DNA of 35,306 nt from NCBI GenBank assembly GCA_903865705.1, contig CAIPKT010000110.1:1-35306 (forward strand), in the 5' to 3' direction. Position numbers and translations under genes: made by a program. The stretch's first letter is position 1; every line of letters begins with the position of its first letter. The notes under the pieces were generated by a model. That model was given only the letters and a program-made list of their open reading frames with translations. It was not told the origin of the DNA and did no database searches. The DNA comes from an uncultured Chlorobiaceae bacterium. Lineage in GTDB: Bacteria; Bacteroidota; Chlorobiia; Chlorobiales; Chlorobiaceae. Below, one piece after another: positions 1 through 30,587 of the stretch.

Positions 1-30
1 TCCGGAGTGTATTGGTGCGTTCAGCTACAT

Positions 31-46
31 TGGCACACTATATGCT
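31..46 (+). promoter_or_regulatory. Sigma-54 (-24/-12) promoter upstream of gvpA
   Basis: The bases TGGCACACTATATGCT match the sigma-54 consensus TGGCAC-N5-TTGCW. The invariant GG (32-33) and GC (44-45) have the correct spacing, and there is one mismatch in the -12 box (ATGC for TTGC). Transcription would start near base 57, giving a leader of about 66 nt before the gvpA start at 123. Sigma-54 promoters need an AAA+ activator, and such a regulator is encoded at 13102-14505. Only 30 bp of upstream DNA is visible, so activator binding sites cannot be assessed. Confidence 0.7.
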
Positions 47-122
47 ACTCTTATTTGGTGAGGCAGACCGTCCCTCTCTTTACAAGACGGAATTTGAAGC
101 AACAAATAACTGGAGATTTATC

Positions 123-329
123 ATGGCAGTAGAGAAAACGATTGGTTCATCAAGCCTCGTCGAGGTTATTGACCGTATTCTTGATAAGGGTGTTGTTGTT
201 GATGCATGGGTAAGGGTATCACTTGTCGGTATCGAGCTTCTTGCTATCGAAGCACGTGTCGTAGTTGCCTCTGTAGAGACCTACCTGAAATATGCTGAAG
301 CAATTGGCCTGACTGCAAAAGCAGCGTAA
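123..329 (+). CDS. gvpA: Gas vesicle structural protein GvpA
   Basis: GvpA is the small hydrophobic protein that polymerises into the ribs of the gas vesicle shell in the cytoplasm. The 68-residue product has the typical family core: [15 protein letters not shown], then the strand-turn-strand segment around [17 protein letters not shown], then [20 protein letters not shown]. An in-frame ATG at 12 would add 37 residues with no GvpA similarity and would run through the sigma-54 promoter. The ATG at 123 is preceded by GGAG at 112-115 and gives the expected length. It is the first gene of the array, and its own promoter and the 190-bp gap behind it fit with GvpA being needed in excess over the accessory proteins. 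Confidence 0.95.
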
Positions 330-519
330 GGGAACGAGCAGTTTAATGATTGTTCTTGCTAAAACATCCTCCGGCTAAGATGTCCAGTGAGCATGATTTA
401 CCAAGAACTCATTTATAAGGCTAAAAAAAGGAAAGAGGATAAATATTTACCACAAGGCATTGTTGAGTTTTAACTACGTATAACATTGTGTCAAGATGGG
501 TGTGAAGGAAGAGGTTAAT

Positions 520-1110
520 ATGGAAAAGGTTGCTTTTGGAGATATTGGTGACTCTGATGAGGTAAGAATACAAAAAATTCAGAACGCCTTCCAGTGCTCA
601 GAGAATATCAAGGAGTCTTGCCATTTTTTGGTGAACAGTGTTGAGCATTCTCTGGAATATCTTAAGGAGAGAAGGAATGATGTGAGCTCTAAACTATGTG
701 AGGCACTGGCGAAAAAAGAGTCGTTGAGGAAAAAAGATTATAATATTATTATTAGTGAAATCTATAATTTGCTTGATGAGAAAGAACGTAATGCAAAAAA
801 TCATTTTTTTGCTTTTATAGAAGATCAGAAAGAGTTTACACAGTCATTAAAAAATATAATATTAAATATTTCTGATTACAGTTCAACAGATTTTCAAGAT
901 AAAACTGCCTTACTGAAAGAAGAGCTGGTTCAAATTGCAGAGATACAGGAAAAAAGAAAAGAAACAGTGATAAAGATATTGACAAATTTTCAAGATATCC
1001 ATAAAGAAGTGATGACATATCTCGAATCATTACTTGAAAAAGGTGGTAATATCAACATAAGGGATATTAAAAACGCCAAATATATTATAAGCAAAGAGCT
1101 GTATTCGTAA
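520..1110 (+). CDS. Unknown coiled-coil protein in gas vesicle cluster
   Basis: I do not recognise the family. The product is about 196 residues, highly charged and predicted helical, with Lys/Glu-rich stretches and heptad-like hydrophobics across its length (for example SVEHSLEYLKERRNDVSSKL and EELVQIAEIQEKRKETVIKI). There is no signal peptide, membrane segment or catalytic motif. The ATG at 520 is preferred over the in-frame ATG at 496 because a GAAGGAAGAGG purine run at 505-515 lies just upstream of it. It sits between gvpA and a GvpC-like gene and is strongly AT-rich. Position and helical character suggest a shell-associated or assembly protein, but this is inference. Confidence 0.8.
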   Translation: MEKVAFGDIGDSDEVRIQKIQNAFQCSENIKESCHFLVNSVEHSLEYLKERRNDVSSKLCEALAKKESLRKKDYNIIISEIYNLLDEKERNAKNHFFAFIEDQKEFTQSLKNIILNISDYSSTDFQDKTALLKEELVQIAEIQEKRKETVIKILTNFQDIHKEVMTYLESLLEKGGNINIRDIKNAKYIISKELYS

Positions 1111-1136
1111 TATTCTTAACAAAAACGGAGAGAAAG

Positions 1137-2306
1137 ATGGGACTGGCTAATGAAATGAAAAGCTTAAGTGAAGAGATGCTTTCTTCCTTTAAAGGGCGTG
1201 TAAGAGATAATGAGGCACTTGTTGCCAATGTTGAAAATAAACTTAAACAGTATCGTGATGAGCAAGCTAAAACAGCAAGAAAGTTGAATACAGATGCAGT
1301 CGAGTTGAAAAATAACCTTGCTGCAGGGGAAAAAGAGAGAATGAAAAATTATGGACAGTTGATAGGCTCAATACAGAAGGATATTAAGGGTATAGAAAAA
1401 GATGTTAAAAGTTCAAAGTCTTCAACAAATGCTTTGATCAAAGATTTCTCAAAGGCAAGAAAATTGCTGGCAAGTGATTTGGATAAGTTTTTTTCAGATG
1501 AAAATAAGTCGCGAGCAGAGAATGAGCAATCGAGAATGGCTGAGTATGAGTTGTATATCGGAAAAATCAGTGATGAGGTAACAAGCATATTCAACTACAC
1601 AAACGAGATGCTTGAAACGTTCGGAAATGAGCATAAGGAGATGACGGATGAACTTAATGCCGAACTGAGCAGGACACGAAAAGAGAGATTTGACTATACC
1701 CATGCGTTGCTTCAAGGCATTCAGGGGAGAATTCAAGAGATTAGTAACGAAAACCGTAATGCTGCCCGTAAGCTGAGAAAAGATTTGAACCATGGTGAGG
1801 CGGAAAGACTGAAAGAATATAATGCCTTGTTCGACAGAATCAGCAGCGAAGTTGAACAGTTGAGAAAATCAACATCAAGCCTTCTTGGCAGCTATTCCAA
1901 AGACAGGTCACAGGGAGCTGAGCATTGGAAGCAGATGCAGACAAAGATTGCCGCAATAAAGGCTGGAGAGAAGGTGACAAGTCCTAAGAAAGTTGAGAAA
2001 GCAACCGAAAAAATTGAAGTTAAAGCTGAGCCTATGGTTGCTGCAGTAAAAGAATTGTCAATTTTTGAGGAAAAGCCACCGGTTGCACCGCTTGAACTGC
2101 CGATCGTAAATGAAGAAATTACATTGGAGAACAAAATTTTTCAGTATATCAACAATCATCGTGAAGGTGTAAAGGTTTCTGATATGGAAGAGCCTTTGCA
2201 TGAAACCAGGATGAAAATCGGCTTTGCTGCAAAATGTTTGTTTGATGCGGGTAAAATAACCAAAGTAGAAAATCTTTATTATCCCGCAAAGAAAATCGTA
2301 AAATAA
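1137..2306 (+). CDS. GvpC-like coiled-coil repeat protein with C-terminal winged-helix-like domain
   Basis: The 389-residue product is mostly long alpha-helix with about four imperfect repeats of 40-55 residues between residues 45 and 270. Each carries a motif like E-K/A-x-R-M/L-K-x-Y-x-x-L-I/F followed by I-x-x-I/E (GEKERMKNYGQLIGSI; QSRMAEYELYIGKI; RKERFDYTHALLQGI; GEAERLKEYNALFDRI). GvpC, the outer-surface protein that stiffens gas vesicles, is also built of amphipathic helical repeats and usually follows gvpA, so a GvpC-like role is plausible. A Lys/Pro/Glu-rich linker (about 275-325) leads to a compact C-terminal segment (about 328-389) that looks like a small winged helix and is not part of classical GvpC. 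It begins 26 bp after the preceding gene, with GGAGAGA just before the ATG. Confidence 0.7.
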   Translation: MGLANEMKSLSEEMLSSFKGRVRDNEALVANVENKLKQYRDEQAKTARKLNTDAVELKNNLAAGEKERMKNYGQLIGSIQKDIKGIEKDVKSSKSSTNALIKDFSKARKLLASDLDKFFSDENKSRAENEQSRMAEYELYIGKISDEVTSIFNYTNEMLETFGNEHKEMTDELNAELSRTRKERFDYTHALLQGIQGRIQEISNENRNAARKLRKDLNHGEAERLKEYNALFDRISSEVEQLRKSTSSLLGSYSKDRSQGAEHWKQMQTKIAAIKAGEKVTSPKKVEKATEKIEVKAEPMVAAVKELSIFEEKPPVAPLELPIVNEEITLENKIFQYINNHREGVKVSDMEEPLHETRMKIGFAAKCLFDAGKITKVENLYYPAKKIVK

Positions 2307-2322
2307 TTATATCTTTATTCTT

Positions 2323-2359
2323 GCAAGGGAGGGCGTTTTTTAAAAATCCCCTCCCTTGC
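2323..2359 (+). terminator. Stem-loop between the GvpC-like gene and gvpN
   Basis: An 11-bp perfect stem (GCAAGGGAGGG at 2323-2333, complement at 2349-2359) encloses a 15-nt loop that can itself pair through T and A runs. It is not followed by a T-tract, so it is more likely an attenuator, processing site or 3'-end stabiliser for the upstream transcript than a full intrinsic terminator. Placed between structural and accessory genes, it could lower expression of gvpN and downstream genes relative to gvpA. Confidence 0.6.
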
Positions 2360-2427
2360 CTGATTGCGTTATGGATGGAAATAATATTAATTGAATTGGT
2401 TTATTAAAATTCAAATAGACTGTACTT

Positions 2428-3354
2428 ATGAGTCGCCAAGGAAATGATACTGAGATGAATACAGTGCTTGAGCCGAAGCCCATGCCTAATTTTGTCGAAA
2501 CAGACTATATCAGGGATATAACTAATCGAGGTCTGACATATATGAAAGCTGGATTTCCTGTTCATTTCAGGGGGCCGTCCGGCACGGGAAAGACAACTGT
2601 TGCTTTGCATCTTGCAAGCAAGATAGGTAGGCCTGTTGTCATTATTCATGGCGATTCAGAATACAAGACATCTGATCTTATTGGAAGTGAGCAGGGTTAT
2701 AAATACCGTCGGCTTGACGATAATTTTATTCATTCTGTTCACAAGTATGAAGAAGATATGACAAAGCAGTGGGTCAACAATCGTTTGACTATTGCTATCA
2801 AGAAAGGGTTTACTTTGGTGTATGATGAGTTTACCCGTTCACGTCCTGAGGCTAATAATATTCTTCTTCCTATTCTTCAAGAAAAGATGTTGAGCACATC
2901 TTCATCCAATGAAGAAGAGTATTATATGAAGGTTCATCCTGAATTCAGGGCCATTTTTACTTCGAATCCTGAAGAGTATGCAGGTGTAAACCGTACACAG
3001 GATGCTCTGCGTGACAGAATGGTTACCATGGATCTTGATTATTTCGATTACGAGACCGAACTTATGATCACTCATGCAAAATCAGGAATGTCGCTTGATG
3101 ATGCTGAAAAAATTGTTAAAATAGTCCGCGGGTTGCGTGAATCAGGAAAAACAGAATTTGACCCTACAATACGTGGGTCGATTATGATTGCCAAAACGCT
3201 GAATGTTCTTGGTGCAAGGCCGAACAAGTCAAATGAAATGTTTAAAAAAGTTTGTCAGGATATTTTGACTTCAGAGACGAGCAGGGTAGGATCCAAAACA
3301 AATCAGGAAAGAGTACGTGGTATAGTAAATGAGCTTATTGATTTATACTCATAG
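2428..3354 (+). CDS. gvpN: Gas vesicle AAA+ ATPase GvpN
   Basis: GvpN is a MoxR-like AAA+ ATPase needed for gas vesicles to grow to normal size. The 308-residue protein has a Walker A motif GPSGTGKTT at residues 49-57, a Walker B LVYDEF at about 130-135, a sensor-type segment FRAIFTSNPEEYAGV and an arginine-finger region (DALRDRMVTMDLDYFD). These match the family in order and length. The start is uncertain: the ATG at 2428 has no clear ribosome binding site, while an in-frame ATG at 2455 has AAGGAA about 11 bases upstream and would give 299 residues. It follows a stem-loop and precedes the accessory genes, as in other gvp clusters. Confidence 0.93.
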   Translation: MSRQGNDTEMNTVLEPKPMPNFVETDYIRDITNRGLTYMKAGFPVHFRGPSGTGKTTVALHLASKIGRPVVIIHGDSEYKTSDLIGSEQGYKYRRLDDNFIHSVHKYEEDMTKQWVNNRLTIAIKKGFTLVYDEFTRSRPEANNILLPILQEKMLSTSSSNEEEYYMKVHPEFRAIFTSNPEEYAGVNRTQDALRDRMVTMDLDYFDYETELMITHAKSGMSLDDAEKIVKIVRGLRESGKTEFDPTIRGSIMIAKTLNVLGARPNKSNEMFKKVCQDILTSETSRVGSKTNQERVRGIVNELIDLYS

Positions 3355-3383
3355 TCATGGAAACCAAAATCAAATAAGATATT

Positions 3384-3689
3384 ATGCCGATCAAGACTAC
3401 TAAAAGGGGAGTCAATCATATTAAAACTCTCCATACCGTTACAAAAGCATCTGCAAAGAAAAACGACACAGCTGATTTTCTTGAATTGTACATGCTTGAG
3501 AAGGAGAAGCAGCGGTTAATGAGTGAGGAGTCAAAAATATTGTTCAGACTTGATTATGTTCAAAATCGATTGAGAATTATACAGAATATTTATGAGCATA
3601 GTTCATATTTGCTTCATCATCAAAATAGTAACAATTACCGCGAGGTAAACTCAAATCCTGGATTTACAACTATCCAAATAGAGTATTAA
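3384..3689 (+). CDS. Small basic helical gas vesicle protein (GvpV-like, tentative)
   Basis: The 101-residue product has a basic N-terminus (MPIKTTKRGVNHIKTLHTV) followed by a helical core (DFLELYMLEKEKQRLMSEE) and a tail with no recognisable motif. The layout of a basic arm followed by a L-Y-x-L-x-x-E-K-x-R-L helix resembles the small GvpV proteins of cyanobacterial gvp clusters, from memory only. Its biochemical role is unknown. It lies 29 bp after gvpN and 12 bp before gvpJ, so it is almost certainly co-transcribed. There is no signal peptide or membrane segment. Confidence 0.7.
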   Translation: MPIKTTKRGVNHIKTLHTVTKASAKKNDTADFLELYMLEKEKQRLMSEESKILFRLDYVQNRLRIIQNIYEHSSYLLHHQNSNNYREVNSNPGFTTIQIEY

Positions 3690-3701
3690 ATTCATTGTAC
3701 C

Positions 3702-4001
3702 ATGTCAGAATTAAAACATGCGGTTAATGCGACAGGCCTTGCGGATATACTTGAAAGGGTTCTGGATAAGGGCATTGTTATTGCAGGTGATATCAAAATA
3801 CAGATTGCCGATATAGATTTGCTGACAATTAAAATACGACTTTTAATTGCATCAGTTGATAAGGCAATGGAGATGGGCATAAACTGGTGGCAGGAAGACC
3901 CTTATCTTTCTACGAAAGCAAAAGACAAAGAACATAAGCTGTTACAGGATGAGTTACAGCAGCGTATAGAGAAATTGGAAGCTATAACCAGGATAACGTA
4001 A
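3702..4001 (+). CDS. gvpJ: Gas vesicle protein GvpJ (GvpA family minor component)
   Basis: This 99-residue protein shares the GvpA-family core (LADILERVLDKGIVIAGDIK, then IDLLTIKIRLLIASVDKA) and carries a family-typical extension with MGINWWQEDPYLS followed by a charged helical C-terminus. The WW-x-x-DP segment and the extension identify GvpJ rather than GvpA or GvpS; the same segment is known from Bacillus megaterium GvpJ. GvpJ is thought to be a minor shell or nucleation component, with the conical ends suggested as its site. It is followed after 11 bp by gvpH. Confidence 0.9.
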   Translation: MSELKHAVNATGLADILERVLDKGIVIAGDIKIQIADIDLLTIKIRLLIASVDKAMEMGINWWQEDPYLSTKAKDKEHKLLQDELQQRIEKLEAITRIT

Positions 4002-4012
4002 GGGGATTCGCG

Positions 4013-4531
4013 ATGAAAAACGAAAAAGAGGGTAGTGGAAAGGGTGAATCAGAACTTGATTTTCTGGGGTTGGGAGGTCTTTTTAAAGGAATCGAGAAGT
4101 TAGTGGATTTAGCAGGTAAACTCGAGCAAACTGGAGCTGTCAGCCGTGAAGGAGAGCTCAATTTTGACCAGCTTAAAAAAGGAATGAAAGGCGTTTATGG
4201 GTTTACCATCAAATCAGCGGTGGGTGGTGCTCCAAAAGTTGAGACTTTTGGGAATATAGTCAAAACGGCTCAAGGCCCAAAGGTCAATGAGGAGCGTGAA
4301 CCTATAACGGATGTTTTTGATGAGAGCGATGAGGTGGTCGTCATTGCAGAAATGCCAGGTATTGAAGAGGCGGATATATTTATTGATCTTAAGGATGATA
4401 TTCTTGAAATTTCAACGAAAAACCTGAAAAAAAGTTATCGTAAAGAGCTTTTGTTGCCGATCAAGCCACAGAAAAACTCACTTCAGCAAAAGTATACAAA
4501 CGGTATCCTTGAAATAAGAATTAAAAAATAA
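4013..4531 (+). CDS. gvpH: Gas vesicle Hsp20-like chaperone GvpH
   Basis: The 172-residue product has a glycine-rich N-terminal half (about 1-90, with FLGLGGLFKGIEKLVDLAG) and a C-terminal alpha-crystallin/Hsp20-like domain (about 95-172), including DVFDESDEVVVIAEMPGIEE, a DILEIST strand and the closing NGILEIRIKK strand. This is the layout of GvpH, a small-heat-shock-like accessory protein that interacts with other Gvp proteins in haloarchaea. An AGGGGA ribosome binding site lies just upstream of the ATG. It probably holds aggregation-prone gas vesicle subunits. The next gene starts 5 bp downstream. Confidence 0.88.
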   Translation: MKNEKEGSGKGESELDFLGLGGLFKGIEKLVDLAGKLEQTGAVSREGELNFDQLKKGMKGVYGFTIKSAVGGAPKVETFGNIVKTAQGPKVNEEREPITDVFDESDEVVVIAEMPGIEEADIFIDLKDDILEISTKNLKKSYRKELLLPIKPQKNSLQQKYTNGILEIRIKK

Positions 4532-4536
4532 CCACA

Positions 4537-5502
4537 ATGCCGCTGACAGGTTTGGAGAGCAAAGACCTTAAGATGATTATATTTGGCGGTAAAGGTGGTG
4601 TTGGTAAGACCAGTTGTGCTGTAGCATGTGCTATCGGGTTGGCTGAACATTTTAAAACTCTGGTAATTTCAACAGACCCGGCGCACTCGATTTCTGACAG
4701 TCTCGAACAAGAGATAGGGTTCAGACTCCAACCGGTTCATAACGTTGTAAACCTCACCGCTATAGAGATTTCTGCAGACAAAGCATTTCAAGAGTTTAAA
4801 AAAGAGCATGAAGCTGAACTTATCAAACTTTTTGATACTTCTACCAGTTTTGATGAAGAAGATATTCAGCAAATGATGAGTCTCACAATTCCTGGAATTG
4901 ATGAGGTTATGAGCTTCAAGACTATTATTGATCTTATTGAAGAGAATAATTATGAAAAATACGTTGTAGATACAGCTCCTACTGGGCACGCGTTACGCCT
5001 TTTGTCTTCACCGATACTATTGGATGAGTGGATTAAGATGGCTGCGAAGATGAGGTGGAAGTATCGTTATATGATAGAGTCTTTTTCTGGTGAGTACAAG
5101 GAAGATGAGGCAGATGTTATGCTGCTTAATCTTAAAAAGACCGTCAAGCGTATTGCAGCTCTTCTGAGCAATAGAGAGAAATGCGAATTTATTCCTGTCT
5201 GTATTCCTGAGGATATGGCTATTATGGAAACAGACCGGCTTTTAAAGGAGCTCAAGAGCTTTAAGATTGCGTCAAGCCAGATGATTCTCAATAATGTCAT
5301 GGTGTCTGACGAATCGGGATTTTGCAGGCAAAGAAAGGCTGCTCAAGAAAAGTATGTTAAAAAGGTACATGATCTCTTTAAAGATTTGCAGGTTGTGATT
5401 GTCCCTCTTTTTCCTGATGAAATCAAGGGGGTAAGTGCGTTAAAAAAGTTACAAGAGGTGCTCTTTGATGAAAATAAAGCTCTAAACAGAGATGAAAAAT
5501 GA
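4537..5502 (+). CDS. ArsA/Get3 (TRC40)-family ATPase in gas vesicle cluster
   Basis: This 321-residue soluble ATPase has the deviant Walker A motif GGKGGVGKT (residues 17-25), the switch I motif STDPAHS (45-51) and the switch II motif [12 protein letters not shown]. It also has the Get3-type A-loop region [16 protein letters not shown], so it belongs to the ArsA/Get3 family. Get3 shields tail-anchored membrane proteins and ArsA energises arsenite efflux. No arsenic gene is nearby, so a chaperone role for hydrophobic GvpA-type subunits is the better inference. The Get3 zinc-binding CxxC is not intact: the corresponding region reads [13 protein letters not shown] with one cysteine. The stop overlaps the next ATG by four bases (ATGA), indicating translational coupling to the CDC48-like ATPase. 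Confidence 0.88.
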
Positions 5503-7646
5503 GTCTTGATGAGTTGCTACTAAAGGTAAAAGAGGCCATTGTCAAGGATGTCGGACGTGCAATAGCAAGGATTGATCCTCATGATATGGCTCGAGCGGGT
5601 CTTGCTTCCGGCGATATTGTGATGATAGAAGGTAAACGTTCCACTCCGGTCAAAATTTTGCCTTCCTACCCTGATGACAGAGGTAAGGGGATTATACAGA
5701 TTGATGGCATTACGAGAGAAAATGCCAATGTCGGTATTGATGAAAAAGTTAGCATAAATACTGTTGCTTTCCGTCAAGCCACTAAAATCAAGCTTAAACC
5801 CGTAACAAAGTCAAGTTCTCAAATTAAAGCTGATGATGCGAAATACATCGGTTCGCTTATCAATGGCTTGCCGGTGACAAAAGGCGATAAAATCAAGGCA
5901 ACTCTTTTTGGATCAGGCTCAATATATTATACCATTACATCAACCACACCCGATGGAGTTGTTCTTATTCATCCGGATACCAACATTCAGCTTGAGTTAA
6001 CAAAACATAATGAAGTAAAATCAAATAAGGTTACTTATGAAGATATAGGGGGGCTTGGCAATCAGGTTCAACGCATACGTGAGATGATTGAACTACCCCT
6101 GAAATATCCTGAAATATTTGAAAGACTTGGAGTTGAACCTCCAAAAGGAGTCTTTCTCTATGGCCCTCCCGGTACAGGGAAAACACTTATTGTTAGAGCA
6201 GTGGCCCAGGAAACCGATGCGTATTTTATAAATATTTCCGGCCCTGAAATTATGGGCAAGTATTACGGTGAAAGTGAAGCAAGGGTGCGTAATATTTTTG
6301 CTGAGGCTCAGTCACATGCTCCGTCAATTATTTTTATTGATGAGATTGATGCAATAGCTCCCAAACGGGAGGATATGGGGGGTGAAAAGCAGGTGGAGAA
6401 AAGGGTAGTTGCACAGCTTTTGTCTTTGATGGATGGATTGGAGTCAAGGGGTAAAGTTATTGTCATTGGTGCTACCAATATACCTAATTCCATTGATCCA
6501 GCCCTGAGAAGACCTGGTCGTTTTGATCGTGAAATATCAATTTCTATTCCCGACAAAAAAGGGAGGCTCGAAATTCTTCACATTCATACGAGGGGCATTC
6601 CATTATCAGAAGATGTGGACATGTCAAAAATTGCTGATATTACCCATGGTTTTGTAGGAGCCGATCTTGAAGCCCTTGCCAGGGAAGCAGCCATGACCGC
6701 ATTAAGGAAAATTCTTCCACAGATTAATTTTGAATTATCTGAGATTCCCTACGAGCTTTTGATGCAATTGGAAGTTACGATGGATAATTTTTTAGATGCG
6801 ATGAAGGAGGTTGAACCATCTGCCATTCGTGAAGTTTTTGTAGAGGTACCAGATGTCAAGTGGGAGGATGTTGGTGGTCTTGATGATATTAAGCAGGCGT
6901 TAAAAGAGAGTGTTGAGTGGCCTGTTAAATATGCAGAACTTTTTAAAAAAACAGATACAAAGCCTCCTAAAGGAATTATATTGTATGGAAAGCCTGGTAC
7001 CGGAAAGACATACCTTGCCAAGGCGCTTGCCAGTGAAAGCGGTGTAAACTTTATTTCTGTCAAGGGACCACAACTTCTCAGCCGTTTTATTGGTGAATCA
7101 GAAAAAGGGGTACGTGAACTTTTCAGACTTGCGAAACAATCAGCGCCGACTATTCTTTTTCTTGATGAAATAGACAGTTTGACGCCACGCAGAAGAAATG
7201 ATGGAACAGAATCCGGAGTTATCGAAAGAGTTATCAGTCAGTTTCTTACTGAAATGGATGGTATTGAAGAGTTAAAAGGAGTCACTGTGCTTGCCGCAAC
7301 AAATCGGATCGATATAATTGATCCGGCATTATTACGTTCTGGAAGATTTGATCTTATGTTTGAAGTACCACTGCCAGAATTAATGACCAGAGAAAAAATA
7401 TTTGAAATACATACAAAAAACATGCCACTTGAAAAGGGTGTGAGCTTGACTGCTTTGGCTGGAAAAACAGAGCGTATGACTGGGGCAGATATACAGTTTA
7501 TCTGTCAAAAGGCTAAAATGTGCGCCATTCGTGAACTAATTGATAAAAAAGAGGCCTCAGAGAATGCTGAGATTCTTGTCAGGGAAAAACACTTTGAAGA
7601 GGCAATACAGGTTGTTATCAATCAAAATGAAAATATTCTAAATTAG
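5499..7646 (+). CDS. CDC48/VAT-family double AAA+ ATPase
   Basis: This 715-residue protein has a CDC48-type N-terminal double-psi barrel and second N subdomain (about 1-175) and two AAA+ modules. D1 has Walker [10 protein letters not shown], Walker B IIFIDEID and a pore motif KYYGESE like that of archaeal VAT. D2 has Walker [10 protein letters not shown] (Lys for the usual Pro), Walker B ILFLDEID and RFIGESE. Both have an R-x-GRFD segment with arginine-finger candidates. CDC48/p97 proteins unfold or extract proteins from complexes. Here it is translationally coupled to the ArsA/Get3-like ATPase and sits inside the gvp array, so remodelling of Gvp proteins is likely but unproven. CDC48 is commoner in archaea and eukaryotes; gvp clusters are one of its bacterial niches. 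Confidence 0.92.
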
Positions 7647-7652
7647 CAAGTA

Positions 7653-8672
7653 ATGAATAGGCAAGGTATTTATATATATGGATTTGTTCCCAGCCATTGT
7701 TTTGAAGCCATAAAAAGTCTTTTGGTAGAATCAGGTATTTATGCAATTGAATATGGGGATGTTTCTGCAGTAGTATCAGATACAAGGGATGAAAAACTTG
7801 AATATTTGGATAAAGAGGCTCTTGCGCATATCCTTGTTTCCCATCAGCAAACTATCGAAAAGATTATGACCGGCGGATGCTCTGAAATAGTTCCGATGCA
7901 ACTTGGTACTATAGTCAGTTCCGGCAACGATGTTATTAAAATTTTGAAAAATGGATCTAATATTTTAAGGGAAACTTTTCAGATTATCGACAATGTTGAA
8001 GAATATGATTTGGTGGCGGTATGGAACAACTTCCCTGAACTTATTAAAACGATATCTGAGACGTCACAAATCAGGCTTATGAAGGATGAAATTGCAAAAA
8101 AAAATGTTTATGATCAGGCTGACAGCATTACAATCGGTAAGTTAATAAAACAAAAGATTGATGAAAAAAACAATAAAGTTAATCTTGATATTGTCCATTC
8201 ATTAATGCCTTATTGCCTTGATGCCAAAAAGCATGAAACGATGAATGATGAAATGCCGGTAAATTCTGCTTTTCTTGTCAAAAAAGAAAACAGAAATGCT
8301 TTCATGGAAATGATCGACCAACTTGACATCAAATATGCGGATCAGTTGAACTTCAAGGTTGTTGGTCCATTGCCTTGTTACAGTTTTTATACTATTGAAT
8401 GTAAAATACTGAATAGGGATGAGATAGAAAAAGCAAAAGGGGTGCTTGGGATTGAAGCTTATAAATCAGATGCCGATCTCAAGAAAGCTTATCGCCTCAA
8501 AGCAGGTCTGACACATCCCGATAAGAACAACGAAATTGCCGAGGACAATAATGACAAATTTATTGAAATCAATAATGCATATAAAATAATGCTCGAATAT
8601 TCATGCATTATAAAACAGTCGGCTGATAATATTTCTCAAGAACCTTTATTCCTGGTCAAAATTAAGAAATAA
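7653..8672 (+). CDS. GvpF/GvpL-family protein fused to a DnaJ J-domain
   Basis: Residues 1-252 form a GvpF/GvpL protein: an N-terminal strand IYIYGFV, ISHQQ-type helix (LVSHQQTIEKIM), the PMQLGTI segment, and the closing VVGPLPCYSFYTIEC strand. Residues about 256-320 form a J-domain with VLGIEAYKSDADLKKAYRLK, the diagnostic HPD tripeptide at 288-290 and an FIEINNAYKIM helix. GvpF/L proteins bind GvpA and assist assembly; J-domains stimulate DnaK ATPase. The fusion therefore suggests direct recruitment of DnaK to nascent vesicles. It is longer (339 residues) than the other four paralogues here (249-265). It follows the CDC48-like gene by 6 bp and is separated from the next paralogue by one base. 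Confidence 0.92.
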   Translation: MNRQGIYIYGFVPSHCFEAIKSLLVESGIYAIEYGDVSAVVSDTRDEKLEYLDKEALAHILVSHQQTIEKIMTGGCSEIVPMQLGTIVSSGNDVIKILKNGSNILRETFQIIDNVEEYDLVAVWNNFPELIKTISETSQIRLMKDEIAKKNVYDQADSITIGKLIKQKIDEKNNKVNLDIVHSLMPYCLDAKKHETMNDEMPVNSAFLVKKENRNAFMEMIDQLDIKYADQLNFKVVGPLPCYSFYTIECKILNRDEIEKAKGVLGIEAYKSDADLKKAYRLKAGLTHPDKNNEIAEDNNDKFIEINNAYKIMLEYSCIIKQSADNISQEPLFLVKIKK

Positions 8673-8673
8673 T

Positions 8674-9447
8674 ATGCTAAAAGATGGTAAATATGTTTAT
8701 TGTATAATTGCTACCAGTTATGAATGCAATTTTGGGCCTATAGGAATCGGGGGTCGGGGCGATTTGGTAAGTACTATAGGATTCCAGGGATTAAGCATGG
8801 TGGTCAGTGATCATCCACTCAATCATTTTGTGTTAAATCCAGAAAATATTCTCGCCCATCAAAGAGTTATTGAAGCGGTAATGAGCCAATTTGACAGCGT
8901 TATACCGGTCAGATTCGGTACCGTAGCGGCTACTCCTGATGAAATCAGAAATCTTCTTGACAGGCGGTACAGTGAGTTGTCGGACCTTCTTCAGCGTTTT
9001 GAAAACAAGGTTGAATATAATCTGAAGGCTTCATGGCGAAGCATGGGTATGATTTATAATGAGATTGATAAGGAAAATGCAGGCTTAAAAAAGCTGAGAA
9101 GTAAAATTGAGCAATTGACTGATGAAGAAAAAAGAAAAATCCTGATTGTAGAGGCTGGTCATTTAATTGAAGATGCGTTACTGAAAAAGAAAGAATATGA
9201 AGCAGAGGAAATTGTTTCTGCTTTTCGCAAGACAATCGTCGCCAGCAAGCATAATAAAACAACCGGCGAAGCCATGTTTATGAATACAGCTTTTTTGCTC
9301 ACCAAGGGCCGGGAAGTAGAGTTTGATAATATCCTGACTGATCTTGGCGAAAGATTGAAAGAAAGAAGTGATTTCTTTTATACTGGTCCCTTACCCATAT
9401 TTAACTTTATAGACTTAAGAATCCTGCCTGAAAAATGGGAGCTTTAA
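8674..9447 (+). CDS. Gas vesicle protein GvpF/GvpL family (paralogue 2)
   Basis: The 257-residue protein shows the whole GvpF/L pattern: KYVYCIIATS start strand, FGPIGIGG loop, ILAHQRVIEAVM helix, VIPVRFGTV core strand, a charged helical middle, and FYTGPLPIFNFIDLRI at the end. Family members are cytoplasmic accessory proteins that contact GvpA and nucleate shells. It is very similar in layout to the next paralogue (FGPIGIG shared at the same position), suggesting tandem duplication. It could be called gvpF or gvpL; the sequence alone does not decide. Confidence 0.92.
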   Translation: MLKDGKYVYCIIATSYECNFGPIGIGGRGDLVSTIGFQGLSMVVSDHPLNHFVLNPENILAHQRVIEAVMSQFDSVIPVRFGTVAATPDEIRNLLDRRYSELSDLLQRFENKVEYNLKASWRSMGMIYNEIDKENAGLKKLRSKIEQLTDEEKRKILIVEAGHLIEDALLKKKEYEAEEIVSAFRKTIVASKHNKTTGEAMFMNTAFLLTKGREVEFDNILTDLGERLKERSDFFYTGPLPIFNFIDLRILPEKWEL

Positions 9448-9470
9448 ATTCACAGTAGATTATTAATAAT

Positions 9471-10247
9471 ATGGATATCGGTGAGGTAAAAGAAGGGAGA
9501 TATATTTACGGAATAATAAGGAATTCCGAAAAAATTGATTTCGGCCCTATCGGAATAGGCAGTCGAAATGATCATGTATACGGAGTGACTTATAAAGATA
9601 TATGTGCTGTGGTCAGTTCATCGCCTGACATTCAATATCAAGCAAGGCGTGCAAATATGATTGCTCATCAGAAAGTGCTTGAAGAGGTTATGAAGAACTT
9701 TAATGTTCTTCCGGTCAGATTTTCAACGATATCGCCCCATGACAACGATGATGCAATAATCCGTATTCTTACTGAAGATTATAAAAGATTTGATGATTTG
9801 CTCGATAAAATGAAAGGAAAGAAAGAGTTGGGACTAAAAGTTGTTGCGGAAGAATCAAAGATTTATGAAAACATTATACAGAAATATGACAGTATAAGAT
9901 CACTTAGAGATAAACTGATTAACCAGCCTTCCGATAAAATTCACTATCAGCGTGTAAAGATAGGAGAAATGGTTGCTGAAGCGCTCAAGAAAGAGATTGA
10001 GAACTATAAGACACAGATTCTTGATACCTTGAGACCTATAGCTGAAGATGTCAAGATTACTGATAACTATGGCAATCTTATGATACTTAATGCAGCTTTC
10101 CTTATTAAGGAGGTCAAGGAGCATGCGTTTGATCAGGCGGTGAATGAACTTGATCAAAAATATGGGGATGTTATGACGTTCAAATATGTAGGAACGCTAC
10201 CTCCTTATAATTTTGTTAACCTTTCGATCAATACCAAAGGGGGTTAA
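9471..10247 (+). CDS. Gas vesicle protein GvpF/GvpL family (paralogue 3)
   Basis: This 258-residue protein has the GvpF/L signatures GRYIYGIIRNS, FGPIGIGSR, MIAHQKVLEEVM, VLPVRFSTI and the terminal strand YVGTLPPYNFVNLSI. It resembles the preceding gene in both motifs and spacing. The stop at 10245-10247 is one base before the GTG start of gvpG, and the gvpG ribosome binding site lies inside the 3' end of this gene, so the two are probably translationally coupled. The GvpF-GvpG adjacency hints that this copy is the gvpF equivalent. Confidence 0.92.
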   Translation: MDIGEVKEGRYIYGIIRNSEKIDFGPIGIGSRNDHVYGVTYKDICAVVSSSPDIQYQARRANMIAHQKVLEEVMKNFNVLPVRFSTISPHDNDDAIIRILTEDYKRFDDLLDKMKGKKELGLKVVAEESKIYENIIQKYDSIRSLRDKLINQPSDKIHYQRVKIGEMVAEALKKEIENYKTQILDTLRPIAEDVKITDNYGNLMILNAAFLIKEVKEHAFDQAVNELDQKYGDVMTFKYVGTLPPYNFVNLSINTKGG

Positions 10248-10248
10248 A

Positions 10249-10482
10249 GTGTTTATTATAGATGACATATTATTTGCCCCATTAAATGGGCTTATATTTG
10301 TGGCAAATAAAATTAATGATGTTGTAGAGAAGGAAACATCAGATGAAGGTACAGTTAAAGAACGTCTTATGGCCCTTCAGCTTAGGTTTGAGCTGGATGA
10401 AATTGATGAGGACGAATACGACAGGCAAGAGGATGAACTTCTGCAAAAGCTCGAAAAAATTAGATTAGACAAACAAAACTAA
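10249..10482 (+). CDS. gvpG: Gas vesicle protein GvpG
   Basis: GvpG is a small accessory protein found next to GvpF. The 77-residue product begins (V)FIIDDILFAPLNGLIFVANK and continues into an acidic helical region (LMALQLRFELDEIDEDEYDR) and a Lys/Glu-rich end, as in the family. An in-frame ATG at 10213 would overlap the previous gene and add residues foreign to GvpG. The GTG at 10249 has the strong ribosome binding site AAAGGGGGT at 10237-10245 and gives the family start, so it is the preferred start. Confidence 0.9.
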   Translation: MFIIDDILFAPLNGLIFVANKINDVVEKETSDEGTVKERLMALQLRFELDEIDEDEYDRQEDELLQKLEKIRLDKQN

Positions 10483-10558
10483 TAATTAAGTGTCAAGTTT
10501 ATCGAAAGAAAGGATTATAAATCATTCTCTTTTGTAAAGTAACTTCCAGGAGCATATT

Positions 10559-10831
10559 ATGAGCAAAATAATTAGTGTAAGAAACGCCGTTATTAAATTT
10601 CTTAAAGAAAACATCAAGACAACTGAAGTAACTGTAATTAGGATAGAAAAATCAGGAGATACATGGAAAACTGTTTCCGAGGTATATGAAGATGATTCGT
10701 TTTTAAAATCAATGAATCTTCCTCCTAAAAAAATAAGATTATTTTACTCAGTAGTAGTTGATTCTGAATTGGAGGTATTGTCATTTACAAGGCTTACGAC
10801 ATATGATGATTCGGAATCTGAAAATAATTGA
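10559..10831 (+). CDS. gvpO: Gas vesicle protein GvpO (probable)
   Basis: This 90-residue protein has the GvpO order of elements: an N-terminal helix (VRNAVIKFLKENIK), then WKTVSEVYED, a proline turn, and LFYSVVVDSELEVLSFTRLTTYDD, which corresponds to the Y-x-V-x-x-D-x-x-G-E-L-x-x-Y-x-R strand pair of the family. GvpO is required for vesicle formation in haloarchaea, possibly in expression control. The ATG is preceded by CCAGGAG at 10547-10553. A 76-bp gap precedes it, the longest in this half of the array, but I see no sigma-54 site there. Confidence 0.8.
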   Translation: MSKIISVRNAVIKFLKENIKTTEVTVIRIEKSGDTWKTVSEVYEDDSFLKSMNLPPKKIRLFYSVVVDSELEVLSFTRLTTYDDSESENN

Positions 10832-10846
10832 AGGTTTAATGTTGCT

Positions 10847-11644
10847 ATGAATGCAGATCAGAATAAACTTATTTACTTATATTGTTTTACAAAAAAAGTC
10901 CCTTCGATTCTAAATCCCGAATTTCAGCAGGATTTAGTGTTTATGGAGATTGAAGGGCTTTACGCGGCAGTAAAGTATGTATCAGAAAGTGAATATTCTG
11001 AAGAAAATATTAAAAAAAATATTTCTGATGTAGAATGGCTGGATGCAAATGTAAGGGAACATCTCCGGTCAATTACTATCATCATGCAGACGGAGACTGT
11101 AATCCCTTTTAATTTTGGCACGATCTACAAGTCTGAAAAAAGTTTAAGAGAGTTTGCAAGTCAATACGCTTATGATTTTAGAGAAAGTTTTCTTTATCTT
11201 GAAAACCGGGAGGAGTGGTCGGTAAAAGTGTTTTGTGACAGAAAAATGATCATCGAAAATATAGGCACTTTTAGTCCAAATATTTCAGATATTGATCAGC
11301 AAATCAAGAGTAGTTCTCCTGGTAAAGCTTACATACTTGGAAAGAAAAAAAAAGAAATTATCGAGACTGAAATAAAAGTTGTTTATAATAATTTATCAAA
11401 AAAAATCTTTACTGCTTTAAATGAATTATGCGATGAATATCGATTCAATATCATTCTTTCAAACGAGTTAACTGAAAAGAATGAAGATATGATTCTTAAT
11501 GTTGCGTTTTTCATTAAAAAAGAAAATATTGACCATTTTATACAATGTTCTGATCAGTTGATGCATGAGTATTCAGGTGTCGGTATGATTATGGATATTA
11601 CAGGGCCTTGGCCTCCGTACACGTTTTTAAAAATATCGCATTAA
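10847..11644 (+). CDS. Gas vesicle protein GvpF/GvpL family (paralogue 4)
   Basis: The 265-residue product has a GvpF/L layout but is more divergent than paralogues 1-3. It starts KLIYLYCFTKKVP, has VREHLRSITIIMQ in place of the usual AHQ helix, VIPFNFGTIYKS for the core strand, and ends DITGPWPPYTFLKIS. It is very AT-rich (runs of A in many lysine codons). It ends one base before the gvpS start. The GPWPPY ending is shared with paralogue 5, so these two form a second subgroup flanking gvpS. Confidence 0.88.
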   Translation: MNADQNKLIYLYCFTKKVPSILNPEFQQDLVFMEIEGLYAAVKYVSESEYSEENIKKNISDVEWLDANVREHLRSITIIMQTETVIPFNFGTIYKSEKSLREFASQYAYDFRESFLYLENREEWSVKVFCDRKMIIENIGTFSPNISDIDQQIKSSSPGKAYILGKKKKEIIETEIKVVYNNLSKKIFTALNELCDEYRFNIILSNELTEKNEDMILNVAFFIKKENIDHFIQCSDQLMHEYSGVGMIMDITGPWPPYTFLKISH

Positions 11645-11645
11645 T

Positions 11646-11837
11646 ATGCAAGACGACCTTTATGATATTAATAAAGAAATCACTATTCTTGATGTTCTTG
11701 ATCGTGTTTTAACAAAAGGGGTTGTTATAACCGGTGATATTGTGATTTCAGTAGCTGATATAGATCTTGTTTATCTGGGGCTTAGGTTATTGCTGAGTTC
11801 AGTAGAGACAATGGAAAAAATGAAAGCAGTTAATTAA
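11646..11837 (+). CDS. gvpS: Gas vesicle protein GvpS (GvpA family)
   Basis: This 63-residue protein is the third member of the GvpA family in the window. It has ILDVLDRVLTKGVVITGDIV followed by VADIDLVYLGLRLLLSSVETM. The LVYL-x-LR-x-L-x-SSVET segment is characteristic of GvpS as in Bacillus megaterium rather than GvpA or GvpJ, although GvpM is an alternative name for close relatives. It is probably a minor shell or nucleation component. It starts one base after the preceding gene, between two GvpF/L paralogues. Confidence 0.85.
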   Translation: MQDDLYDINKEITILDVLDRVLTKGVVITGDIVISVADIDLVYLGLRLLLSSVETMEKMKAVN

Positions 11838-11865
11838 ACTTATTACGAATTATAATCTGTCAGGT

Positions 11866-12615
11866 ATGCCGATAATTATGTATGCCATTCTTGACACAAG
11901 AGTAAACAATGAGGATATATCTCATTTTATTGAACACCTTTCTTTTGAGTCAAATATCCAGTTTGAATTAATTTCCTCCCATGAGTTAACTGCTGTAGTT
12001 TCAATCCAGACGGAGAGCAAATCAGCAATCTCACAAGCGGATGTGTTAACGTATGCTGGTATTGTTGATATAATAGCTCAAAAACACTCAATCCTTCCCA
12101 TGAGGTATGGCTCTGTTGTTTCTTCTTATGCAGACATAACAAATTTGCTGGACAAAAACGCAGAATCTTTTCATCGAGTCTTGAAAAAGATTTCGAATAA
12201 AGAGGAATATTCATTACGCCTCTTGTTTTCGCATCAGCATCAGGATGCTGATTTTAATAAAGAGAGTTCTGATGCAACTCAATCAGTTCCGGATATCCTG
12301 CAGGGTAAAAGTGAAAATAAGCAATACTTATTAAAAAAATACCAGAAGCATATCATTGAAGAACAGCGTATCCAATATATTGAGAACATTCAATCCAAGG
12401 TTATTATAGATCTTAAAAAGATAACTGAATATATTGAGTTTAATAAAAAGGTTACGCCAGCATTTATTATAGATGCAGTTATTTTGATTGAAAAGTCAGC
12501 AAAAGGCGAACTTCTTGCTTTTGTGGGTCAACTGAAATCCAAGTATCCAGAACATAATGTCATTTTGACTGGCCCATGGCCACCATATAATTTTGCTCAA
12601 ATTAAGCTTGAATAG
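11866..12615 (+). CDS. Gas vesicle protein GvpF/GvpL family (paralogue 5)
   Basis: The 249-residue product is the most divergent GvpF/L copy but retains the key elements: IIMYAILDTR start strand, VLTYAGIVDIIAQKHS helix, ILPMRYGSVVSS core strand, and LTGPWPPYNFAQIKLE at the end. A longer polar insertion with many Gln, Lys and Ser lies between residues about 120 and 170. It is followed after 2 bp by gvpK. The GPWPPY end groups it with paralogue 4. Confidence 0.88.
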   Translation: MPIIMYAILDTRVNNEDISHFIEHLSFESNIQFELISSHELTAVVSIQTESKSAISQADVLTYAGIVDIIAQKHSILPMRYGSVVSSYADITNLLDKNAESFHRVLKKISNKEEYSLRLLFSHQHQDADFNKESSDATQSVPDILQGKSENKQYLLKKYQKHIIEEQRIQYIENIQSKVIIDLKKITEYIEFNKKVTPAFIIDAVILIEKSAKGELLAFVGQLKSKYPEHNVILTGPWPPYNFAQIKLE

Positions 12616-12617
12616 AG

Positions 12618-12962
12618 ATGCAAGAGGATAAAATATTGTTTTATGCAGGTTCTGCCAATGAGATTATAGAGGAACTTGAAAAAATAAAGCCAGGCGATCA
12701 AGGCAGAATAAACGCCACACCAGAAAATGTTGATTCTGGTCTGGCAAAACTTGTATTGACCCTTATTGAACTGATTCGCAAGTTAATGGAAAAACAGGCA
12801 ATGCGCAGAATTGACGGAGATTCATTGACTGAAGAACAAATTGAAAACCTCGGAGAAACCCTCATGAAACTTGAAAACAAGATGGATGAGCTAAAAAAAA
12901 TATTTAATCTCACGGATAAAGACCTTAATCTTAATCTTGGCCCTTTAGGTGACTTATTATAA
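12618..12962 (+). CDS. gvpK: Gas vesicle protein GvpK
   Basis: GvpK is a small accessory protein essential for vesicle formation. The 114-residue product has the family centre RINATPENVDSGLAKLVLTL, then IELIRKLMEKQAMRRIDG and SLTEEQIENLGETLMKLENK, ending in a DLNLNLGPLGDLL tail typical of the family. It is the last + strand gene of the array. The 139 bp to the convergent regulator gene hold only a small hairpin (12986-13002, no T-run), so no clear terminator is visible. Confidence 0.93.
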   Translation: MQEDKILFYAGSANEIIEELEKIKPGDQGRINATPENVDSGLAKLVLTLIELIRKLMEKQAMRRIDGDSLTEEQIENLGETLMKLENKMDELKKIFNLTDKDLNLNLGPLGDLL

Positions 12963-13101
12963 AGTGAAGGAATCTCTCTTTGTGCTTTCATCCTGTATGA
13001 AATCACTTGAAGTACTCGATTTTGAAGTAAGGCGAGAAATACACTAAGGATACATATCAATATAAATCAGTATTGCTGGACGTCTTATTCTAAGGTGCTT
13101 A

Positions 13102-14505
13102 TTAGCGTTCTATTTCATTCTTTGTAATATCAATTTTGTATTTTTTCATTCTTCTTATGAGCGTATATCGACTGATTCCAAGAATTTCTGCTGTTATTAC
13201 CTGATTATATTCACACTCCGCAAGTGTTTTTCTTATAATATCGGCCTCTTCTGTTTTGTTATCTACGTCTGTTGTATTTCTTTTTTCCAATCGTTTTATT
13301 ATTGTTGGTAAGGGAAAATCAGCTATTTCCAATGATTCCCCTGTCGAAAGTATAATAGCTCTTTCCGCAAGGTTTCTCAGCTCTCTTATGTTTCCAGGAA
13401 AACTGTACTTTTCAAGTGCCCCGAACACGTCATCCGCAATATATTCAATTGGCTTATTGATTTTTTCAGAAAACTCTTCAACAAAATCAATCAAGAGAGG
13501 TCCAATATCTTCAGTTCTTTCCCTCAAAGGCGGGATGTGTATATGCAGAGTGTTTAATCGGTGAAGCAAATCAAGTCTGAACTTTTTTTCTTCAACCATT
13601 TTTTCCAGATCACAGTTAGTAGCTGATATTAATCTGAATTTAGTTTGTATTTGCTTTGTATCACCCACTCTTGTAATTGATCTTTCTTCTATGGCTCGCA
13701 AAATCTTTGACTGGAGATTAACTGGCATATCAGCAATTTCATCAAGAAAAAGCGTCCCCTCATTGCATACCTCAAATAATCCTTTTTTATCAGATATTGC
13801 TCCTGTAAATGATCCTTTTTTATGCCCAAAAAATTCACTTTCAATCAGTGATTCGCTGATAGCGCTGCAATTAATGGCTCCAAAATAATTCTCTTTCTGC
13901 TGGCTCATGTAATGAATAAGTCTAGCAAAAATCTCTTTTCCTGTTCCGCTTTCACCTGTTATAAGAACGTTGATATCAGGATATTGTGAGGCTTTCTTAG
14001 CTAATTCATATATCTCTATTATTTGTTTGCTTTTTCCGATACAATGACGACCGATTTTCGATTGTATATCTGAATTGATTAACGAATACTTTTCTTCAGC
14101 TTTTTCGAGTTTTCGCTGCATTTGAAGGTATTTTTGCGTTCGCTCTATAGCGATTTGTATATCAATATACCTCATGGGTTTGCGCAGATAGTCAAATGCA
14201 CCTAACCTGATGGAATCAATAACCGTATCCATATCGCCATGTGCCGAAACCATGATAACTTCTATATCAGGATAAAGTTCCTTAACTTTCTTTAATATAT
14301 CCAGGCCATTTGTTCCGGGTAGGCGTACATCAAGAATCAAAAGATCAATTTTGTTTTTGCTCATTATATCATAACCATCTTCAGGTGTATTTGCTGAAAA
14401 TGGAATAAATCCTGAGTTTTTCAGGTAATCACTGATTTCATTAGTAAAATCAATTTCGTCATCCAGCGTCAGAACTTTTAACTTTATTTTATTTTTAGTG
14501 TCCAT
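13102..14505 (-). CDS. NtrC-family sigma-54-dependent response regulator
   Basis: This 467-residue regulator has a receiver domain (about 10-125) with phosphoacceptor Asp59 in ILDVRLPG and conserved Lys109 (LRKP). An AAA+ sigma-54 interaction domain (about 150-375) follows, with Walker A GESGTGKE at 184-191 and Walker B TLFLDEIADMP, and then a Fis-type helix-turn-helix (about 420-455, ILGISRYTLIRRMKKY). The sigma-54-binding loop reads GSFTGA (231-236) rather than the canonical GAFTGA. Its start overlaps the stop of the upstream histidine kinase gene by one base, so the two form a cognate pair. It converges on the gvp array, whose first gene has a sigma-54 promoter; control of gas vesicle synthesis is a reasonable inference. 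Confidence 0.95.
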   Translation of the reverse strand: MDTKNKIKLKVLTLDDEIDFTNEISDYLKNSGFIPFSANTPEDGYDIMSKNKIDLLILDVRLPGTNGLDILKKVKELYPDIEVIMVSAHGDMDTVIDSIRLGAFDYLRKPMRYIDIQIAIERTQKYLQMQRKLEKAEEKYSLINSDIQSKIGRHCIGKSKQIIEIYELAKKASQYPDINVLITGESGTGKEIFARLIHYMSQQKENYFGAINCSAISESLIESEFFGHKKGSFTGAISDKKGLFEVCNEGTLFLDEIADMPVNLQSKILRAIEERSITRVGDTKQIQTKFRLISATNCDLEKMVEEKKFRLDLLHRLNTLHIHIPPLRERTEDIGPLLIDFVEEFSEKINKPIEYIADDVFGALEKYSFPGNIRELRNLAERAIILSTGESLEIADFPLPTIIKRLEKRNTTDVDNKTEEADIIRKTLAECEYNQVITAEILGISRYTLIRRMKKYKIDITKNEIER

Positions 14506-23842: not shown

Positions 23843-23848
23843 TCCCTG

Positions 23849-23881
23849 AAGACCTTTCCGGTATAATTCCGGAAAGGTCTT
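23849..23881 (+). terminator. Rho-independent terminator after bchD
   Basis: A 13-bp perfect stem (AAGACCTTTCCGG at 23849-23861, complement at 23869-23881) with a 7-nt loop is followed by a run of T's (TTTTT at about 23880-23884). It separates bchID from the downstream large-subunit gene, which must have its own promoter in 23882-24043. That gap is AT-rich and contains a 10-bp palindrome TAAACGTTTA at 23967-23976. Confidence 0.9.
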
Positions 23882-24043
23882 TTTGTGGAATTATTCCGCT
23901 TCCTTCATACGTTAAATTATAGAAGCATTTAGTATCAAACGTTACTTACAGAGTATATTTATTTTCTAAACGTTTATTCTTAATGTTTATATTTCAAGTC
24001 ATTGTACAAGTGACATATTTAATGTATACCTACTTTTTACATC

Positions 24044-30398: not shown

Positions 30399-30587
30399 TT
30401 ATCTATCCATAAAATATGCAGTCACCTTGGTGTCAGCAAGGACACCGTGTATAAGTGGATTGATAAAAATAAAATACCGGTTCATCGCATGGGACGTCTC
30501 TGGAAGTTCAGGAAGGAAGAGGTAGATAAATGGGTGAAAGCCGGTGGCGCTACTGAACAGAATAAAATGAGTCGAAGTCGGTTATGA
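30399..30587 (+). pseudogene. Excisionase-type helix-turn-helix protein, apparently lacking a start
   Basis: The open frame encodes SIHKICSHLGVSKDTVYKWI, then NKIPVHRMGRLWKFRKEEVD and KWVKAGGA. This is the helix-turn-helix of the excisionase/MerR-like family (tyrosine- and tryptophan-rich VYKW, then GRLWKF wing). No ATG, GTG or TTG exists in frame before the conserved region: an in-frame TAG at 30396-30398 closes it, and an AGGGGAG at 30377-30383 lies a little upstream. Either the start was lost by mutation or a non-canonical start is used. Its stop at 30585-30587 overlaps the brxA ATG at 30584 by three bases (ATGA), so it was built to be coupled to brxA. Such small DNA-binding genes commonly precede defence operons. 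Confidence 0.7.

Follow-up and report, generated by a model that had tools for sequence, protein, structure and literature searches.

A putative GvpC-type gas vesicle protein with a predicted winged-helix head in an uncultured Chlorobiaceae bacterium

The closest described counterparts of the protein reported here are the GvpC proteins of cyanobacteria and haloarchaea. The period set by GvpA is given as 33 residues per four subunits in passages of two papers (PMC10185304, PMC10903477), and a motif of arginine, phenylalanine and leucine is held to bind GvpA (passage of PMC10903477). Part of the same paper describes haloarchaeal GvpC as ending in an extended linker followed by a compact C-terminal domain (PMC10903477), which an excerpt of a second paper places at aa 329-382 and in which it reports a zinc finger at the globular C-terminus (PMC9372576). 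According to that excerpt, the haloarchaeal C-terminal domain bound GvpN, GvpO, GvpF, H, I, L and itself in split-GFP assays, and binding between GvpA and GvpC was undetected (PMC9372576). When the C-terminal domain was supplied without the repeats, vesicles became longer and thinner than those formed without GvpC, as stated in a portion of PMC9501494. The literature on GvpC in connection with Chlorobi, green sulfur bacteria, Pelodictyon, winged helices or apolipoproteins, as covered here with most subscription journals lying outside that coverage, holds no description of the head domain reported below.

We analysed a window of 35,306 nucleotides from an uncultured Chlorobiaceae bacterium (contig CAIPKT010000110.1 of assembly GCA_903865705.1). 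Pfam and NCBIfam annotation of its ORFs placed a gas-vesicle cluster at 123-12962, the first part of which comprises gvpA, an ORF referred to here as 'up', the gene for P0001, gvpN, orf101, a gvpJ-type gene and genes for Hsp20, ArsA/GET3 and CDC48. The second part contains a GvpF/L-DnaJ fusion, four more GvpF/L proteins, gvpG, a gvpO-like gene that scores below its model cut-off, a third GvpA-like gene and gvpK. The P0001 gene sits between gvpA and gvpN, the same layout as that of the Nostoc GvpC gene. The features at this end of the cluster are as follows.

123..329, + strand: gvpA, main shell protein, 68 aa from the ATG at 123, matching PF00741 and the NCBIfam GvpA model
520..1110, + strand: 'up' protein, a further long, amphipathic and helical protein in the gvpC slot; carries an SLRKKDY motif
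1137..2306, + strand: P0001, GvpC-type protein, 389 aa, ATG start
2323..2359, + strand: conserved RNA hairpin between the P0001 gene and gvpN, after the stop codon, with compensatory change
2428..3354, + strand: gvpN, AAA+ ATPase of vesicle growth, above cut-off against TIGR02640 (E=3.1e-102)

The gvpA ORF was listed at 12-329 and its start was placed at 123 from relatives of 68 aa. The 'up' protein, which lies between gvpA and the P0001 gene, matched no Pfam or NCBIfam family above cut-off and carries an SLRKKD[FY] motif found class-wide. Of 15 class loci whose gene layout was determined, 13 have an equivalent identified by blastp (it is missing in G194, and G311 has an unmatched ORF), and these 13 proteins have a hydrophobic stripe at 98.25-99.75 degrees. 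Elsewhere in the cluster, a GvpL/GvpF protein is fused to a C-terminal DnaJ domain (7653-8672), and with the CDC48, ArsA/GET3 and Hsp20 genes beside it a chaperone set is present within the gas-vesicle cluster. Adjoining the cluster on the opposite strand (13102-17957) are genes for a large PAS-domain histidine kinase and a sigma-54 response regulator, a possible regulator of the cluster. Mg-chelatase-type genes occupy 20811-27892 of the window, and brxA and brxB, BREX phage-defence genes, occupy 30584-31806.

An AlphaFold2 model of full-length P0001 was built with 16 orthologs, and the protein was divided into the following parts.

1140..1910, + strand: rod, residues 2-258, one continuous predicted helix with no proline and a stripe at 99.5 degrees per residue
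1329..1460, + strand: repeat A, residues 65-108, anchor R68-x-x-x-Y72
1524..1634, + strand: repeat B, residues 130-166, anchor R133-x-x-x-Y137
1677..1754, + strand: repeat C, residues 181-206, degenerate anchor R184 (R-F-D-Y)
1797..1907, + strand: repeat D, residues 221-257, anchor R224, a stretch resembling Nostoc GvpC
1893..1928, + strand: rod-end motif Y253-x-x-x-R257-x6-W264
1959..2117, + strand: predicted disordered linker, residues 275-327 (pLDDT 38-50)
2118..2303, + strand: predicted winged-helix-type head, residues 328-389, from the model and its fold matches

In the AlphaFold2 model the rod helix is followed by a second predicted helix at residues 260-273. Over 257 residues the hydrophobic stripe keeps to one angle, 99.5 degrees or 3.62 residues per turn, and none of 2000 shuffles reproduced this; a stripe at one angle implies a straight stripe on an uncoiled helix, fit to lie on a surface. 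The initial annotation had described about four imperfect helical repeats and named self-alignment as the check, and this did recover a repeat signal: with the family profile over residues 1-300 the best ungapped self-match spanned 35 columns (residues 54 versus 210), and both this match and the best mean lag score were equalled by 0 of 800 shuffles (four kinds, 200 each). The R-x-x-x-[YF] anchor was present at R68, R133 and R224 in all 16 orthologs, the third anchor being shifted to 231 in two orthologs that carry a 7-residue insertion. With the degenerate anchor at R184 included, the number of repeats agrees with the earlier count, and the spacing of the anchors is irregular (65, 51 and 40 residues). 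The R/Y/L face of the rod recalls the arginine, phenylalanine and leucine motif mentioned above.

Peaks near 8.2-8.4 residues (hydrophobic, K/R and S/T) were seen first in the family profile and then tested, so that the summed value of p=0.0007 is post hoc and the hydrophobic value near 8.25 residues, the equivalent of 33 residues per four GvpA (p=0.0033; Nostoc control 0.0003), is the fairer figure for a period of about 8.2 residues; on a free scan this period is not significant, as 112 of 1000 shuffles reach it. The summed test gave p<0.05 in five of 30 cases, namely the Nostoc control, P0001's family, G025, G190 and G053 (G053 itself contributes one row to that family's profile), and p>=0.05 in the other 25, including G154, haloarchaeal GvpC, Methylocella, nine of the ten head-less proteins and all 13 'up' proteins. 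The exact GvpA register of the rod is suggestive only.

No Pfam or NCBIfam model explains P0001, which was not listed at E<=1 against PF01304, TIGR02641 or PF05465. As controls, Nostoc GvpC matched the PF01304/TIGR02641 models at 7.5e-48 and 3.2e-39, and pNRC100 GvpC matched PF05465 (Halo_GVPC) at 3.4e-74. The best Pfam match of P0001 was Apolipoprotein (E=2.3e-7, 31.1 of 90 bits), which is far under the cut-off and was read as amphipathic-helix likeness; given this likeness, the 'apolipoprotein' of one literature passage is probably a gene of the P0001 type. When 1355 ORFs were searched with a rod-end model of the 16 orthologs, Nostoc GvpC was the top match beyond the Chlorobiales slot proteins (16.9 bits, E=3.3e-4), a score reached by 0 of 1000 block shuffles and 0 of 1000 full shuffles and made up of weak pieces, the best of 8.8 bits (i-Evalue 0.12). 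With the all-row and sister-only models the Nostoc score was weaker (reached by 6 and 31 of 1000 block shuffles and by 2 and 18 of 1000 full shuffles), and haloarchaeal GvpC was not outstanding against the three rod-end models (121, 70 and 133 of 1000 block shuffles).

The cyanobacterial GvpC compared here, from a Nostoc sphaeroides plasmid, has in common with P0001 the operon slot, a straight amphipathic helix (stripe at 98.75 degrees) and a weak likeness to the last repeat of P0001, the 8.2-residue modulation in common being only suggestive. It has a 33-residue tandem period that P0001 does not, whereas P0001 adds a tryptophan motif, a linker and a head. The initial annotation was right to call P0001 unlike cyanobacterial GvpC, but a rod followed by a linker and a C-terminal domain is a layout already known from haloarchaeal GvpC (passages of PMC10903477 and PMC9372576); what is new is the variant with a predicted winged-helix head. 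GvpC of Halobacterium pNRC100 shares the gvpA-gvpC-gvpN position and helical repeats with P0001, is of nearly equal length (382 against 389 aa), and likewise has a compact C-terminal domain, predicted in the case of P0001, after an extended linker. The two differ in the rod stripe, at 99.5 degrees in P0001 and 102.5 degrees in the haloarchaeal protein, and in the nature of the C-terminus: the haloarchaeal zinc finger matches ROS_MUCR (28.3 bits, cut-off 25.4), whereas P0001 ends in a predicted winged helix with one cysteine, on which PF05443 (ROS_MUCR) found nothing at E<=10.

Slot proteins between gvpA and gvpN on plasmids of the methanotrophs Methylocella and Methylosinus share the R-x6-W rod end of P0001 but, unlike P0001, have Pro/Ala/Ser-rich tails and no head. 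The Methylocella protein has a stripe at 98.75 degrees and, outside the Chlorobiales, scored best against the all-row rod-end model (E=0.014). The Methylosinus score came mainly from another stretch of its ORF; for the part from the annotated start, the three rod-end models gave scores that 12, 60 and 533 of 1000 block shuffles equalled. On a plasmid of Octadecabacter arcticus, the annotated gene beside gvpN is unlike a GvpC rod; an ORF in the gvpC slot (L113:2612-3436), which looks helical in part and has a tail of KTSSPxPA repeats, fits a GvpC rod better but is without the tryptophan motif. This ORF is missing from the gene table of the record, where an opposite-strand ORF is entered instead. 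The Spartinivicinus slot ORF is 97 aa in length.

P0001 is one of 16 distinct family sequences, all free of internal stops, the other 15 being 37-80% identical to it. Twelve near relatives of the gene occur in Chlorobiaceae/Chlorobium MAGs, and an identical copy is found in one MAG titled Bacteroidia. Orthologs were identified in 16 of 86 genomes of the family, the same 16 in which GvpN scores above cut-off, and the two are adjacent. Across the class GvpN is above cut-off in 27 of 98 genomes. A profile built from the 16 orthologs hit 22 of the 98, made up of the 16 themselves, G154 and five sister genomes in which only the rod matched. A slot ORF precedes gvpN in all 15 loci laid out (five headed, ten head-less) and, with the 12 other family genomes added, a slot protein is present in 27 of the 27 GvpN genomes of the class, with arginine (25) or histidine (2) seven residues before the last tryptophan in every one. 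P0001 has the traits of this Chlorobiales gvpC-slot family, which we define here: R/H at W-7, a stripe near 99.5 degrees and a position adjoining gvpN. A rod-end model of all 27 proteins ranks 16 slot proteins first among the 1355 ORFs, having been trained on them, and the real check is given by cross-tests between family and sister models. The model built without the family finds the family's five set members at E<=7.2e-10, and the family-only model finds seven of 11 sister proteins at E<0.001 and at least 10 of 11 among the matches listed. Plasmids yielded no relative of P0001, and viral contigs no relative of the head. Synteny and co-occurrence with GvpN, together with the straight amphipathic helix and the weak likeness of the last repeat to Nostoc GvpC, bear out the description of P0001 as a GvpC-like rod.

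The hairpin that follows the P0001 stop codon has a folding energy of -31.2 kcal/mol in the window (z -3.2). It was present in the 16 family loci folded, varying in sequence with the stem alike, and a shorter one was found in G154; four spacers of families f3 and f4 gave no comparable hairpin when folded. Compensatory change was observed at all 15 predicted pairs, each in at least one row of an alignment of 15 rows, one of them misaligned. A search of Rfam with window positions 1-13100 returned nothing at the gathering score. Lying between gvpN and the group of gvpA, 'up' and the P0001 gene, the hairpin could allow the structural proteins to be made at a higher dose.

The predicted linker contains 9 K/R and 11 D/E among 53 residues, in keeping with the charged linker that had been noted originally ahead of a compact domain of about 60 residues. 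In the AlphaFold2 model the head has helices at residues 330-339, 347-354 and 358-370 and short strands at 345-346 and 377-378, with block pLDDT values of 74-79 across 331-370, 69 across 371-380 and 44 beyond; it is thus predicted to be compact, and the disordered C-terminus named as the alternative was not found. Averaged over pairs of orthologs, identity amounts to 84% for the head core, 64% for the rod and 42% for the linker. As dS was undefined in at least one region for five of ten pairs only dN was read, and each of the 10 pairs had its lowest dN in the head and its highest in the linker (for the window-L003 pair, rod 0.083, linker 0.337 and head 0.043). The head is the most constrained part of P0001.

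Foldseek comparison of the full model gave winged helices as top matches (Z-alpha of DLM-1: probability 0.99, TM 0.79 by target, E 0.27), at 7-28% identity among the matches listed and with nothing at E<=0.001. All 50 matches listed by VIA fell on the head, mostly to Z-alpha, Lrp-type, BirA, MarR-type and RPA32C domains, with Z 6.0-7.0, a middling range by the tool's own scale (best Z 7.0, rmsd 1.7 over 52 residues). These matches agree with the winged-helix-like domain proposed initially and, for the predicted structure, establish a fold type rather than kinship or function. The fold call rests on the head inside one full-length model; folded alone with 13 close sequences, the head gave a pLDDT of 62 and Foldseek matches of no value (E>=3.6). 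In its three helices and wing the predicted fold resembles that of Z-alpha and other winged-helix domains, here placed on a gas-vesicle rod. By sequence the head matched no family above cut-off: against Pfam there were weak sub-cut-off matches only (e.g. RPA_C, 0.028 for one relative) and against PDB none at E<=10, and a whole-protein profile gave five weak PDB matches (0.0067-0.5), to chains of spike, haemagglutinin-esterase and nucleoporin proteins.

Of the 27 slot proteins, 17 carry the head at the C-terminus and the other 10 (families f3 and f4) carry the peptide F[AS]IxIPF there; no protein has both or lacks both. In the head-less slot proteins (L098-L107) this C-terminal peptide is conserved, seven residues long and hydrophobic. 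A possible relic of the peptide in the G154 linker, NEFFEIPSAE, aligns with it and is not a strict match. The head was detected in 17 of 394 sampled genomes of the phylum, always within the slot protein, and occurs once in its own genome at E<=10; being single in the genome and confined to the slot protein, it is unlikely to be a copy of an ordinary cell regulator. In a GvpN tree of six of the 17 headed and all ten head-less genomes, the head-less group lies on one branch (100/98) and the headed group has support of 73/84, with long outgroup branches. The tree fits one gain or one loss of the head.

The reading that we favour, with moderate confidence, is that P0001 serves as a shell rod of GvpC type and that its head docks a protein on the surface of the vesicle. 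The gas vesicles of green sulfur bacteria would then have P0001 as their outer protein of GvpC type, one to which a docking domain has been added. With its straight hydrophobic face turned towards the GvpA shell, the 258-residue helix would follow the ribs of the shell and stiffen it, while the linker would let the winged-helix head stand off the surface to bind either a second head or an assembly partner, for which GvpN or a protein of GvpF/L/O type would be the first candidates. We infer binding to the shell from the position, stripe, period and GvpC likeness, and docking from analogy with the C-terminal domain of haloarchaeal GvpC and from the hydrophobic peptide that replaces the head in sister lineages. 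Long helical proteins often form coiled coils, and the helix might instead belong to an assembly chaperone or adaptor of that kind, which we consider the least probable of the explanations weighed here. The named GvpC models are without a match to P0001, the true GvpC might be the adjacent 'up' protein, and one quarter of the rod (60-125) has its stripe at 101.25 degrees, with haloarchaeal GvpC at 102.5. However, a heptad coiled coil is expected at 102.9 degrees (3.5 residues per turn), and the angle of the whole rod, at 3.62 residues per turn, makes a coiled-coil rod unlikely. Sub-stretches of the rod peak at 99.0-101.25 degrees, all 13 slot proteins scanned singly lie at 98.5-100 degrees (the shorter ones resolving about 2 degrees only), and the rod end of P0001 is similar to Nostoc GvpC.

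For the head, self-association that cross-links rods into a mesh or vesicles into bundles, in place of recruitment of an assembly partner, appears unlikely, even though the haloarchaeal C-terminal domain paired with itself gave the top split-GFP value of the fragments in an excerpt of PMC9372576 (20.7 versus 10.1 and 4.3). The long predicted linker would provide the reach, and vesicle clustering by GvpU/GvpT is reported in Bacillota (passage of PMC10903477), but a peptide such as F[AS]IxIPF, replacing the head in 10 of 27 slot proteins, would resemble a pocket ligand more than a cross-linker. Binding of the head to DNA, as a tether of vesicles to the nucleoid or in gene control, is less likely than protein docking and in our estimate decidedly doubtful. 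Many fold neighbours of the predicted head are nucleic-acid-binding winged helices (Z-alpha, Lrp, MarR), helix 3 (+2) and the wing with the C-terminus (+4) are locally basic, and haloarchaeal GvpC independently ends in a zinc finger of ROS/MUCR type. Against this, the charge of the head core is -3 to -1 in all but two of the 16 orthologs (P0001 has 0 and one other has +1), and the two glutamates ahead of helix 3, E351 and E356, are invariant across 17 rows. RPA32C, also among the fold neighbours, is a protein-binding winged helix. The substitution of a 7-residue hydrophobic peptide for the head in sister lineages likewise favours protein docking over DNA binding.

If P0001 is a GvpC-type shell rod with a docking head, its loss would be expected to lower collapse pressure, as in a Serratia gvpC mutant, for which a passage of PMC4982088 gives an approximately threefold reduction. 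It is a long shot, and we offer it as such, that rods gained a DNA-binding-type fold at least twice independently and that the green sulfur head still grips DNA, tying vesicles to the nucleoid; the literature on gas vesicles with ParA, nucleoid or partition contained no title on vesicle partition. Were this true, both daughter cells would inherit buoyancy, or vesicle load would feed back on gene expression. More generally, the comparison suggests the end of GvpC as a site where lineages plug in different modules: none in the cyanobacterial example, a zinc finger in haloarchaea, a predicted winged helix in some of the green sulfur bacteria and their relatives, and, in the sister families, a short peptide. 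The head may also offer a natural handle for decorating gas vesicles in ultrasound imaging.
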